Positions 13,483 through 17,444 of a DNA stretch of 64,000 bases are shown here, piece after piece; position 1 is the first letter of the stretch, and every line of letters begins with the position of its first letter. This DNA comes from Acidimicrobiales bacterium (GTDB lineage: Bacteria > Actinomycetota > Acidimicrobiia > Acidimicrobiales > Poriferisodalaceae), in contig JAAZYR010000004.1 of the NCBI GenBank assembly GCA_014239555.1, positions 1 to 64,000 on the forward strand, written 5' to 3'. Under the pieces are notes generated by a model, which searched no databases, was not told the DNA's origin, and saw only the letters and a list, made by a program, of their open reading frames with translations. The position numbers were made by a program, and so were the translations under genes.

Positions 13483-14241
13483 ATGGTCGTAACGTACGAG
13501 GAGGCCGGCAACATCAGGGTCATTACTCTGGACAGGCCCGAAGCCCGAAACGCAGTTAGTCATGACGTCTCAACCGAGCTCGAAGCCCACCTTGACACCT
13601 TCGAATCTGACGACAGTGCCTGGGTTGCGATACTTGCAGCAAATGGATCCGTTTTTAGTGCTGGCGCCGACCTCAAGTCCGTTAGCAGCGGCAAGGCAAT
13701 TGAGACCGAGAAGGGCGGATTCGCCGGATTAGTTCGCTACCCAAGAACCAAACCTTTGATCGCAGCGGTCGACGGTCCTGCCTTAGCGGGCGGTCTGGAG
13801 ATAGTTCTGGCTTGCGACCTTGTCGTCGCGTCCACCATCGCTCGCTTCGGAATTCCCGAAGTGAAACGCAGTCTGATAGCCGGAGCAGGCGGGCTTTTCC
13901 GTCTACCCGCATCAATTGCTCGTAACGTCGCTATGGAATTAGCTCTTACTGGCGATCCCATAAGCGCCGAGCGCGCCTTTGCGTTAGGTCTTGTCAACGA
14001 ACTCGTCGCACCGGGCACCGTGATTGATGCGGCATTAGCACTTGCTGCCCGCATCACCGTTAACGCCCCAATAGCCGTCAGAGAAAGCCGCAAAGTGGTT
14101 TTAGAGAGCCAAGGTGTGGCCGACGCTGAAGGCTGGCAAATCACTAAAGACCATTTTCGGGTCGTCGTAAAAACCGAAGACTTCCGTGAAGGTCCGTTGG
14201 CTTTCGTAGAAAAACGTGACCCTGTTTGGAAGGGACGTTAG
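13483..14241 (+). CDS. Enoyl-CoA hydratase/isomerase family protein (crotonase)
   Basis: A 252-residue crotonase. The oxyanion-hole segments are FSAGADLK and DGPALAGGLE; the Glu in GGLEI and the Glu in FGIPEVK occupy the positions of the two catalytic glutamates of enoyl-CoA hydratase (Glu144 and Glu164 in the rat enzyme). Hydration of a trans-2-enoyl-CoA is therefore plausible, probably in fatty-acid or branched-chain degradation. It lies 9 bp downstream of the 462-residue gene and its TAG overlaps the stop of the convergent Nudix gene in a shared TTAG. Confidence 0.9.
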   Translation: MVVTYEEAGNIRVITLDRPEARNAVSHDVSTELEAHLDTFESDDSAWVAILAANGSVFSAGADLKSVSSGKAIETEKGGFAGLVRYPRTKPLIAAVDGPALAGGLEIVLACDLVVASTIARFGIPEVKRSLIAGAGGLFRLPASIARNVAMELALTGDPISAERAFALGLVNELVAPGTVIDAALALAARITVNAPIAVRESRKVVLESQGVADAEGWQITKDHFRVVVKTEDFREGPLAFVEKRDPVWKGR

Positions 14242-14657
14242 GGCGTTAGAACGCTGTGCTGGAAAAGGAACTCCTTCAGACCAACTGTTAGTTCAAGCTT
14301 TCGCATTTGTTCCGAGTCAGCAAAAGTTAAATCTTGAGCGTCATCACCAGGAACAGCCCCAGAAGGGTCATCGGTTACAGCGAAGAAGTCTGCGATCAGA
14401 TACCTGTGATCCAAGACCGAACGTTCAACCCAACCAATGAACTCCCGACAGTTCACCTTTAGACCAGTTTCCTCTTGAACCTCACGTTCGACCGCATCTT
14501 GCCAGCGTTCTCGGGGTTCTAGGCGGCCACCTGGAAGAGACCATCGACCAATGTCGGGCTCCTGCCCTCGTTTGACAAGGAGTAGTGAGCCATTCCAAAA
14601 CAAGACCGCTCCGACGCAAGGTTCCGGCATCTGTAGGTTGGTCGACTCAGGATTCAT
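14238..14657 (-). CDS. Nudix hydrolase
   Basis: 139 residues with a complete Nudix box, from GGRLEP through REVQEETGL, matching Gx5Ex7REUxEExGU, which binds the catalytic Mg2+. The family hydrolyses nucleoside diphosphates linked to another moiety (8-oxo-dGTP, ADP-ribose, NADH, dinucleoside polyphosphates). The substrate is not readable here. It overlaps the upstream GNAT gene by 11 bp and is last in a three-gene operon with the GNAT and the ThyX-like gene, which hints at nucleotide-pool housekeeping. Confidence 0.9.
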   Translation of the reverse strand: MNPESTNLQMPEPCVGAVLFWNGSLLLVKRGQEPDIGRWSLPGGRLEPRERWQDAVEREVQEETGLKVNCREFIGWVERSVLDHRYLIADFFAVTDDPSGAVPGDDAQDLTFADSEQMRKLELTVGLKEFLFQHSVLTP

Positions 14658-15123
14658 CGAGTGGTTTATGCACAGTTAGGAGCCGGGCCTTGAATCCAAA
14701 CGTTTCGAAAAAGTTTTTCGTCGCACGGTTACCAGGTAATGCCATCGAGTCAATCCCTACACAATTACGGTCAGTGCACCACGAAATAATCGAACCGATT
14801 AGCGCCTCGCCGAGGCCGACGCTTCGAGCCTCGGGGTCAACCCAGATGTCCGAAACCTGGCCCAGGACTTCGCCAGTGCGAAGTAACTCAACTCTGGAGA
14901 CGGCGTATCCGAGGGGAACATCATCAATCATTCCAATCCAGATGGTCTGATCCGGGTCGTGAAACGCCGTTTCAAAGCTCGCTAGATAAGGTCGGCTTCT
15001 CGTCTCGCGTCTGCTCCACACATAACCGCCACGATTCTCGTGCTGCTCTGCTACCGCCTGCGTCGCGAAGTCAGCCAGCATTTCGAGGTCGGCGATAACG
15101 GCAACTCGAACTGATTCATTCAC
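14647..15123 (-). CDS. GNAT family N-acetyltransferase
   Basis: 158 residues. The GNAT core shows VSDIWVDPEARSVGLGEALI, with a variant acetyl-CoA loop (RSVGLGEAL), and the later FFETFGFKARLL segment. It starts at a GTG that overlaps the TGA of the ThyX-like gene (GTGA) and ends 11 bp into the Nudix gene, so translation is probably coupled through all three. The substrate is unknown; a peptide or small-molecule amine is equally likely. Confidence 0.85.
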   Translation of the reverse strand: MNESVRVAVIADLEMLADFATQAVAEQHENRGGYVWSRRETRSRPYLASFETAFHDPDQTIWIGMIDDVPLGYAVSRVELLRTGEVLGQVSDIWVDPEARSVGLGEALIGSIISWCTDRNCVGIDSMALPGNRATKNFFETFGFKARLLTVHKPLDES

Positions 15124-16721
15124 TGCGTTGCCCGTCGCTCTTCCAAAGCCTTTTCTGCTTGAAGTCTCCCGTCTTCTCCCTCAGTAAGGTCAATGTGTGT
15201 AAACATTTCTGCCACGGCTTGATGCCCGGCGCGAGTAGCTATCTGCTGATACATCTCCTGTGCAATCCGCCGATAATTTGGGTGACCCTGTGGCTGACTT
15301 CGCAGTTCGAGCATGTGGAGTGCTTCGCGGGCGTTGAACTGCATGACATACCGAACCCGAAAAGCCATGGATACGGCGTATGAGGCCTGCTCTGGGAATT
15401 CAGGGAGTAGGGATTCATAAAGAGCCCTCGAACGTTCCAGGGCGCCATCGTAGCGATCCGCGAGGCCTGCTCCCTTGACTGCTTCTGGAATTTCGTAGCC
15501 ATGGTTGGGTGTGAGCGATTGCCATTCAATCGTAAGTAGACGATGCCGTTGCAGGTCTCGAAAACCCCCATAGTCGCCAAGCACATCAAACCGGTAATCC
15601 AATCTTTCCAAGGCACGACCCGGCCTGTGACGTCGGTTACCTCTGTCGCCGACATATCGTCGGACTAGATCTATTCGTTCCTCAGATGTCAGCTTGTCGA
15701 CTAAATCCACCAGCTGTGTCTCAGGCAAGTGACTATACGGATACAACATCGCGGCCAACATCTTGCGCTCGCCATCAGGATCCCAGTCAATGAGTTCGAC
15801 CTCGCTGACCGGTACTGGGTCTATCTGCGCGAACATCTGCGTTGTGAGTTCTCGCATCGAATCGCGATTGGCCTCAAAATACTTAGACCAAGCAACACCC
15901 CGATCTTCAACGTCGACGCGTCGAAGGAAAGACGGGATCACTTTTCGCAATTCGAAAAGCATCATGTCGGCGTAGGACCGAGCCTCGGGAAGCGGATGCG
16001 ATCGCATCCGGATCAATAAAGCTTCGTATGCCTGACCTGTGCCATAGATCCCCACATTCGAGAGGCTCGCAGCTGGAAGAAGTCCGCGTACCGCATCAAA
16101 GGACTTCGCCCTTATCGTTTGGCGGTAAGCCAAATCGCCGATGTCTTTGCCCTGTGCGTGGTTAGTTCGATAGAAGTCCTGCATGAGCGGTACCAGCTCT
16201 GCATAACTGTCAAATAGTCGGTCAAGGTCACCGACGTAACGCGTACCAAGCGGAGAAGCAAGTACTTCCGGATCGCGGTGATAGCGATACCGCCCTTCGA
16301 TTCGGGTGTCGTAACTTAAGTAACGAGTTGATTGCTCCAAATAAGCCATCAGTCGTCCCCACTCGAGAACTTTCGTCAAGATATTCGAAGCCTGCTCACA
16401 TGCCAGATGAACGCCGCCCAGCTGCGCGACTGAATCGTCGCCGTATTCGACGAAAACTCGTTGATATAGCGCCTCAGCTTTAGCGAGGCCAACTGTGGCA
16501 TCGATCGACAGATCTCCTGAGATATCAAGATCATCAACGAATTCATCAAGAAACAAACGCCTGAGACTTTTGTGAGTTCTGCTGTACCTCGCGAAAAGCG
16601 CGCCCTTGACTACCTCAGGCAGATTAACGAGCGCGAACACTGGCTGGTCAAGGTTCGTGAAATAGCGACGAAGAACATCTTCCTCGCTCGCCGTAAATTG
16701 CTCAACTGCGTAGTTGTTCAA
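15120..16721 (-). CDS. Tandem ThyX-like (FAD-dependent thymidylate synthase family) protein
   Basis: 533 residues, about twice a normal ThyX (roughly 220-250), made of two ThyX-like modules. The ThyX motif RHRxxSxNExSxRY appears in complementary pieces. Module 1 has WGRLMAYLEQSTRY, keeping the ExSxRY half but not RHR. Module 2 has RHRLLTIEWQSLTP, keeping RHR and the Ser but not RY. The NAREALHMLELRSQPQGHP segment near the end matches the ThyX C-terminal motif with its nucleotide-binding Arg. ThyX makes dTMP from dUMP using methylenetetrahydrofolate, FAD and NADPH. Whether this protein does so is unproven. First gene of an operon with GNAT and Nudix genes. Confidence 0.8.
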   Translation of the reverse strand: MNNYAVEQFTASEEDVLRRYFTNLDQPVFALVNLPEVVKGALFARYSRTHKSLRRLFLDEFVDDLDISGDLSIDATVGLAKAEALYQRVFVEYGDDSVAQLGGVHLACEQASNILTKVLEWGRLMAYLEQSTRYLSYDTRIEGRYRYHRDPEVLASPLGTRYVGDLDRLFDSYAELVPLMQDFYRTNHAQGKDIGDLAYRQTIRAKSFDAVRGLLPAASLSNVGIYGTGQAYEALLIRMRSHPLPEARSYADMMLFELRKVIPSFLRRVDVEDRGVAWSKYFEANRDSMRELTTQMFAQIDPVPVSEVELIDWDPDGERKMLAAMLYPYSHLPETQLVDLVDKLTSEERIDLVRRYVGDRGNRRHRPGRALERLDYRFDVLGDYGGFRDLQRHRLLTIEWQSLTPNHGYEIPEAVKGAGLADRYDGALERSRALYESLLPEFPEQASYAVSMAFRVRYVMQFNAREALHMLELRSQPQGHPNYRRIAQEMYQQIATRAGHQAVAEMFTHIDLTEGEDGRLQAEKALEERRATQ

Positions 16722-16829: not shown

Positions 16830-17444
16830 TCAGAATATGACGTTGAAAGCATCAGGGACCACCCTCACTGCGATTGAACGATGCCGTCCCTCGTCAACTC
16901 CGTCGATCCGGATACGAAAGGGACGCTCGAAAGTCCGTTCTAAATGAGTAACTCTTTCGCTACGAATACCTGAATGCGGCAAGTGATCCCCCGTTCGCAG
17001 ACGACTTCTAGCTAACCACCTTTGCCTAATGGGTAGATCTCCTTCCAGCAGGTCAAATCGGCCATCGTTGGGATGCGCTTTGGGGGCCACACGCCATGTG
17101 TCACGCCATTCAGAGTTCATCACTGCGGTGATTGGCCCCAGCCACCAACTTCTCATACAAAACACGTGGGCTACGGCTGCACATGAACGATCATCAAGGC
17201 TGACCTCGGCCGCATCAATTGGCGCCATCTTGGCTTCCTGACTGCGAATTCTTTGCAATCCTCCTACGGGAGAACCTAACGCTCGCCATAAATCACCCCC
17301 GAGAAGCGCTATGGGAGGAATCTCTGTTCCAGCAGCCCAAGATTCCTCGACAACGGTTCGCACCTCGGCGTCTGTTGTCGCTATGACATCCACTAACCCG
17401 AACGGCGCGTCATCACCCCAATCTTCTCCGCGCTCAATCGGCAT
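16830..17444 (-). CDS. Lipid/diacylglycerol kinase-like protein lacking the GGDGT motif
   Basis: 204 residues. The C-terminal half resembles the beta-sandwich of YegS/DgkB-type lipid kinases: APKAHPNDGRFDLLEGDL matches the usual KPDDGxLDV segment, and the end RIRIDGVDEGRHRSIAVRVV matches the final DG(E)...V.V.P strands. The catalytic N-terminal GGDGT nucleotide loop is absent; only LLGGDLWRALG, a possible relic, is seen near residue 50. It may be a non-catalytic or diverged member. It overlaps the end of helY by 11 bp and is last in the tat-helY operon. Confidence 0.6.
   Translation of the reverse strand: MPIERGEDWGDDAPFGLVDVIATTDAEVRTVVEESWAAGTEIPPIALLGGDLWRALGSPVGGLQRIRSQEAKMAPIDAAEVSLDDRSCAAVAHVFCMRSWWLGPITAVMNSEWRDTWRVAPKAHPNDGRFDLLEGDLPIRQRWLARSRLRTGDHLPHSGIRSERVTHLERTFERPFRIRIDGVDEGRHRSIAVRVVPDAFNVIF

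Follow-up and report, generated by a model that had tools for sequence, protein, structure and literature searches.

A tandem ThyX-like protein with complementary active-site halves as the candidate sole thymidylate synthase of a marine actinobacterium and many of its relatives

The window, the whole 64,000-nucleotide stretch of Acidimicrobiales DNA analyzed here, carries on its reverse strand a double-length gene related to the flavin-dependent thymidylate synthase ThyX (Table 1). Full-length homologues with 95-63% identity are found at 80 Acidimicrobiia loci, and close relatives begin at the same start codon, mostly GTG or TTG. Thy1 (PF02511) is the sole Pfam family matched in the protein, in two stretches (114.5 bits, E 6.9e-33); in a scan of the genome the two module matches reached 71.9 and 41.3 bits, each exceeding the gathering cut-off of 24.8 bits. 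The NCBIfam equivalog for canonical ThyX, TIGR02170, gave 37.8 bits over module 2 only, below its cut-off of 87.9, and members of the tandem family, lying under this threshold, are labelled generically. A phmmer search of the PDB returned marginal ThyX matches only. Each module was also compared by hhalign with a profile of 31 canonical ThyX proteins, with the clear results given in Table 1. The profiles of module 1 (M1) and module 2 (M2) match each other weakly when compared directly (probability 7.7, E 0.0045), so their homology is established through canonical ThyX. The preliminary description of this DNA had proposed a tandem ThyX-like protein with the catalytic motif divided between its modules, and the open reading frame, the two Thy1 matches and both motif halves are all confirmed.

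The gene lies in a conserved order of helicase, YegS-like protein, ThyX, GNAT, (Nudix), enoyl-CoA hydratase and GyrA. Coupling to the GNAT and Nudix genes had been taken earlier as a pointer to nucleotide chemistry. Of 80 relatives, 67 have a GNAT match in the vicinity, though it is divergent and can be several kb distant; Nudix was detected in 27 of the 80 only. Because the gene order reflects general synteny and Nudix is so sparsely kept, the argument is weak; no dedicated operon is supported, and the two genes were rejected as evidence of functional partnership. On the other side, at 16830-17444 (-), lies a 204-aa gene with a weak match (21.7 bits) to the YegS C-terminal domain only, no lipid-kinase N-terminal domain being matched; its position upstream of ThyX is conserved in 71 of the 80 relatives.

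Table 1. Features of the tandem ThyX gene and its neighbours in the window (residue counts over 122 actinobacterial tandem homologues)
Feature	Coordinates	Strand	Remarks
Nudix-family gene	14238..14657	(-)	overlaps GNAT gene; neighbouring gene, unlikely to belong to the function
GNAT-family gene	14647..15123	(-)	4-base overlap between its start and the ThyX stop; neighbouring gene, unlikely to belong to the function
Tandem two-module ThyX gene	15120..16721	(-)	533 aa, TTG start, stop codon included
Module 1 (M1), aa 28-270, putative 'C' half (dUMP/catalytic)	15912..16640	(-)	hhalign probability 98.7, E 2.2e-16
S47 of M1 (ARYSR), aligned by motif to T. maritima Ser30	16581..16583	(-)	motif alignment made here
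D95 of M1, at the conserved His53 position (folate/flavin stacking)	16437..16439	(-)	D 122/122
W121-G122-R123 of M1, replacing RHR	16353..16361	(-)	W 84/122, R 38/122; G 119/122; R 122/122
E129-Q-S131-T-R133-Y134 of M1, ExSxRY segment	16320..16337	(-)	E, S, R, Y each 122/122
R212 of M1, = T. maritima R147	16086..16088	(-)	R 122/122 in M1, 0/122 in M2; 43/43 in canonical ThyX
Module 2 (M2), aa 306-508, putative 'A' half (FAD/RHR)	15198..15806	(-)	hhalign probability 99.2, E 8.4e-20
E372 of M2, = T. maritima E58; Gln in M1	15606..15608	(-)	122/122 in M2, 0/122 in M1
R392-H393-R394 of M2, RHR motif	15540..15548	(-)	each 122/122
N463-A-R465 of M2, = T. maritima N163-A-R165 (FAD); T-G-Q in M1	15327..15335	(-)	N 114/122, R 121/122
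R474 of M2, = T. maritima R174 (dUMP contact from RHR subunit)	15300..15302	(-)	120/122

Residues were counted over 122 actinobacterial tandem homologues, with 43 canonical ThyX proteins as reference. The M1 motif reads W121-G-R-L-M-A-Y-L-E129-Q-S131-T-R133-Y134 and that of M2 R392-H-R-L-L-T-I-E-W-Q-S402-L-T-P. The T. maritima residues E86, S88, R90, Y91 and R147 correspond to E129, S131, R133, Y134 and R212, all invariant in M1, where the R78-H79 positions have become W/R-G; R90 and R147 are absent from M2 in every homologue. Never is RHR...S...SxRY contiguous in one module: RHR occurs in M2 only and ExSxRY in M1 only (122/122). That M1 has WGR in place of RHR and retains ExSxRY, as first described, is thus seen directly in the sequence. 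For M2, the reported retention of RHR and absence of RY hold, while the supposed keeping of the first Ser region does not: it is not a conserved property, since a Ser stands at the position of Ser402 (that of S88) in no more than 20 of the 122 relatives, and the position of Ser83 is occupied by Thr397.

A broader view comes from the 19 columns in which at least 95% of the 43 canonical sequences agree. Six of them (E58, F64, R78, H79, N163 and R165) are kept in M2 and absent or largely absent from M1, with neither N nor R found at the N463 and R465 positions of M1 (0/122 each). Five others (S88, R90, R147, P151 and E182) show the opposite pattern. The R80 and R174 columns are retained in both modules, the Arg at R174 in 119 of 122 M1 sequences, which makes the loss of the 'A' half in M1 only partial; the H53 and H59 columns are gone from both; and P199 is retained in M1 and unaligned in M2. 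Added together, the modules hold the complete FAD/dUMP pocket set, with R78, H79, R80, R174, N163, R165 and E58 from M2 and S88, R90, Y91 and R147 from M1. Judged from these alignments, the partition between M1 and M2 is real but imperfectly clean, and the composite site that it predicts is not wholly canonical. The complementary motif halves lie far beyond chance, being invariant in 122 homologues and recurring in families that are about 22% identical.

Published structures indicate where such halves would sit. In the M. tuberculosis and H. pylori enzymes, subunit A provides the RHR motif and a late Arg, subunit B the Ser and Arg that hold the FAD phosphates, and subunit C a backbone contact together with the Ser, Arg and lid Tyr of SxRY; the contacts that hold dUMP are made by the first RHR Arg and the later Arg, from A, and by the Ser and Arg of SxRY, from C (PMC6514825). 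In PBCV-1 ThyX, monomer A contributes Gln75 and Arg182, and monomer B contributes Ser88 and Gln89 (PMC3498832). Ser30 of the T. maritima enzyme contacts the flavin C4=O, and His53 of ThyX packs on folate or flavin (PMC11940539). The correspondence of these literature residues with T. maritima numbering is an alignment made in this analysis, as is the match of Ser30 to S47, a residue invariant in alignments A1 and A2 and almost so in A3. Since the two half motifs are placed by these structures on different subunits of one site, both belong to one pocket. By homology, M2 would represent the 'A' half and M1 the 'C' half of the same pocket, and the solved structures suggest that the two halves meet.

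Structure prediction supports the fold of M2. AlphaFold2 run with 43 close relatives only gave a pLDDT of 66 and an unreliable M1; addition of eight Bacillus-phage homologues (alignment A3) raised the single-chain model to a pLDDT of 80.1 and a pTM of 0.82. Residues 305-513 of the model superpose onto the T. maritima enzyme (Z about 16, 2.4-2.5 Å over about 190 residues; for 1o26_C, Z 16.1, 2.5 Å, 190 residues), so M2 has the ThyX fold in the model. The superpositions on ThyX crystal structures span aa 305-513, and the likeness of M1 comes from its profile match and from a whole-length match to the tandem ThyX of Microcystis phage LMM01 (Ma-LMM01), the top viral hit by structure. The M1 motif loop (residues 128-141) and residues 92-102 have a pLDDT below 50, so the geometry of these two segments in the model is no evidence.

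The genomic context bears on function. The genome to which the window belongs (2.72 Mb, 95.6% complete, not closed) contains no Thy1 match other than the tandem gene; at this completeness, neither ThyA (PF00303) nor a FolA-type DHFR was found in it, and the tandem protein itself matches Thy1 only. The preliminary description had named an ordinary ThyA or ThyX elsewhere in the genome, along with half motifs facing different pockets, as what would count against its proposal; with neither enzyme found in the genome, that objection falls. A thymidine kinase is encoded, so salvage could in principle supply dTMP. Across a sample of 198 Actinomycetota species genomes, the tandem ThyX is present in 60, one of which (G149) is counted from two end fragments. 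None of the 60 has a single-length ThyX and 59 lack a ThyA match, the exception (G129) being a 74-residue fragment at a contig end, while 132 of the 138 genomes without the tandem carry ThyA and/or ThyX. Fisher's test gives p 3e-42 for this mutual exclusion, a value not to be taken literally because the species are related. G177, a genome of the same class without ThyX, has a strong ThyA. Against the nearest homologues, dN/dS is 0.035-0.045 (about 0.03-0.05), alike in M1 and M2, and both halves are under strong purifying selection. Together, the census and dN/dS form the pattern of a sole, essential thymidylate synthase. The double-length ThyX thus appears to be the only candidate thymidylate maker of this marine actinobacterium and of many related species.

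Some other genomes of the sample depart from these types. Five (G051, G039, G009, G075 and G162; loci L169-L173) have neither tandem nor ordinary ThyX and encode an apparent circular permutation of ThyX with the motif THRxFSRNSxSSRA, in which the segment that is N-terminal in ThyX (..ARCARVSY...PHWSPxEH) is found at the C-terminal end, behind the RHR-like and SRx segments. In many ThyX-less Actinomycetota, among them G015, G020, G030 and G035, only weak partial ThyA matches of 34-48 bits were seen, in ORFs of about 220-330 aa; some have in-frame stops within the match, and they are possibly divergent ThyA genes. One actinobacterial genome, G040, holds two different tandem ThyX genes (L115 and L116).

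The family extends beyond Actinomycetota, a distribution that rests on plasmid and phage records. The same module order and split occur, at about 22% identity, on Bacillus/Paenibacillus plasmids and IMG/VR contigs, and also in the phages Tunturi_5 (ORF50), Ma-LMM01 (gp020), My-WqHQDG, BONAISHI (ORF269) and VmeM-Yong MS32, identities over this wider set being about 22-25%; scans of viral contigs with the window protein and with the Tunturi_5 protein yielded no relatives. E129, S131, R133 and Y134 stay invariant in the alignment that includes the phage family. The Tunturi_5 gene lies beside a dCMP deaminase and a dUTPase, and a Euzebya plasmid tandem is near a dCTP deaminase. The open literature that was searched, which takes in few subscription journals, yielded no account of a ThyX in tandem, fused or duplicated form. 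A plasmid record labelled 'Parabacteroides distasonis' (NZ_OY725790.1) carries an actinobacterial-type tandem ThyX with 46% identity, probably because the record is mislabelled or the gene was transferred.

In a maximum-likelihood tree of the modules, all M1 sequences form one branch (support 100/100) and all M2 sequences another (97/97), with mirrored internal order, so that phage and Bacillus-group tandems share one clade per module with the actinobacterial ones. A constraint uniting actinobacterial M1 and M2 in one clade is rejected (p-AU 0.00046). When the motif columns are removed the branches persist with support of 95/100 for M1 and 86/81 for M2, although the M2 rows of family F3 are no longer grouped; long branches, chiefly those of phage M2, call for caution in reading the tree. 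A separate duplication in each family was entertained because the residues with the 'B' role lie in different modules in different families, and it is rejected by the same groupings and constraint. These also make a single origin preferable, and the tree favours one ancient tandem ancestor as the best reading of the module sequences.

Two departures distinguish the composite site. His53, present in 43 of 43 canonical ThyX proteins and retained in M1 of the phage and Bacillus tandems, is Asp95 in M1 and Pro367 in M2 of the window protein and is His in none of the 122 actinobacterial tandems; its replacement in both modules leaves the composite site not fully canonical. Structures of T. maritima H53D have been solved with FAD and with FAD plus dUMP (4kar and 4kas, by their PDB titles), so ligand binding is compatible with Asp. 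The other departure concerns the FAD-holding 'B' residues E58, N163 and R165, which lie in M2 of the actinobacterial tandems and in M1, not M2, of the Bacillus-group ones (L153, L154 and L159-L167). Because a pseudo-tetramer of 222 symmetry with M2 as A and M1 as C lets B be either the other M2 or an M1, this placement of residues suggests that module pairing may differ between the two families.

Comparison with known systems defines what is particular to the tandem. Canonical ThyX (PF02511; T. maritima TM0449, M. tuberculosis, H. pylori) shares the fold of M2, has the same FAD/dUMP pocket residues as M1 and M2 summed and fills the same apparent genomic role of sole thymidylate synthase. It is a homotetramer of chains of about 220 aa with four equal sites, whereas the tandem has two diverged modules per chain, each with part of a pocket, a conserved N-terminal extension on M1, and Asp instead of His53. 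Two further proteins share the ThyX fold: PolB of Streptomyces cacaoi, which has a single module per chain and, by its PDB title, UMP/dUMP substrates, and an atypical ThyX of C. glutamicum (3fnn, 3ge9), which stands beside a ThyA, unlike the protein of the window genome.

The tandem protein is most likely a functional flavin-dependent thymidylate synthase that acts as a composite site only, an activity that we infer. With high confidence, it would be the de novo thymidylate synthase of the organism, a ThyX whose duplicated modules underwent complementary loss of half-sites, leaving a complete pocket only where M1 and M2 meet. A ThyX subunit would have been duplicated in tandem within one chain, each copy then losing a different half-site. 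M2 would supply the arginines and histidine of RHR, R474 and the FAD-holding residues, in the role of subunit A; M1, acting as subunit C, would supply S131, R133 and Y134, the backbone at E129 that faces the flavin and, probably, R212. The complete FAD/dUMP/folate pocket would form where the modules meet, either within one chain or between two. A dimer of chains is expected to reproduce the tetramer as a pseudo-tetramer with 222 symmetry, in which sites with M2 as A and M1 as C would be complete and the reverse pair dead; an assembly of this kind would probably contain two live and two retired sites. The earlier proposal that a single chain could rebuild a full site from complementary halves thus draws support from the published pockets, the lack of any other ThyX or ThyA and the purifying selection. 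A more detailed version is put forward tentatively, with slightly less than even confidence: an obligate pseudo-heterotetramer in which two sites are live and two permanently retired, of one ancient origin shared by actinobacteria and large phages, with two wirings of the FAD residues that correspond to two module pairings, and with His53 changed to Asp in actinobacteria.

Three other readings were weighed. The protein might be an inactive structural or regulatory ThyX paralogue, with dTMP drawn from thymidine salvage; this accords with the thymidine kinase encoded in the genome, with the absence of H53 from both modules and with the precedent of the atypical C. glutamicum protein, whose PDB title states that the organism depends on ThyA. 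The residues kept by the tandem are precisely catalytic and ligand-binding ones, invariant and arranged in complementary halves, and the low dN/dS likewise speaks against decay. Moreover, with no other ThyX in any tandem-bearing genome and ThyA matched in a single one, loss of activity would make a whole set of lineages thymidine auxotrophs. Such loss, which the preliminary description had offered as its alternative, is disfavoured, and we regard an inactive paralogue as improbable.

A slightly smaller probability is assigned to a ThyX-like methylase with another substrate, UMP or a modified deoxyuridylate as in PolB, the true synthase having escaped recognition. PolB (4p5a, 4p5b) is indeed among the structural matches, with Z about 13, and the change of H53 to Asp with an altered pocket could mean changed chemistry; against this stand the mutual exclusion, in the phylum sample, between the tandem and either ThyA or canonical ThyX, and the deaminase and dUTPase genes beside the phage and plasmid copies, a setting that dTMP supply would predict. 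It is least credible, and very improbable, that the tandem is active with an independent site in each module and that the split motifs do not cooperate. The Arg residues at R80 and R174 in both modules would suit such an arrangement, but M1 lacks H79, R165, N163 and E58, while M2 lacks R90, R147 and the SxRY loop and only occasionally has S88, and known ThyX enzymes draw the two halves of one pocket from different subunits.

A composite thymidylate synthase matters on several grounds. Thymidylate synthase is an essential enzyme, and its ThyX type, which humans lack, is a drug target; the tandem is apparently the only such enzyme in 59 of the 198 sampled species of Actinomycetota, and in many Acidimicrobiia from marine and fresh water. 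As an instance of subfunctionalisation inside a single active site, it would be clean and open to test. Either half can be mutated by itself, which is impossible in a homotetramer, so the tandem allows the contribution of each subunit to ThyX chemistry to be separated experimentally.
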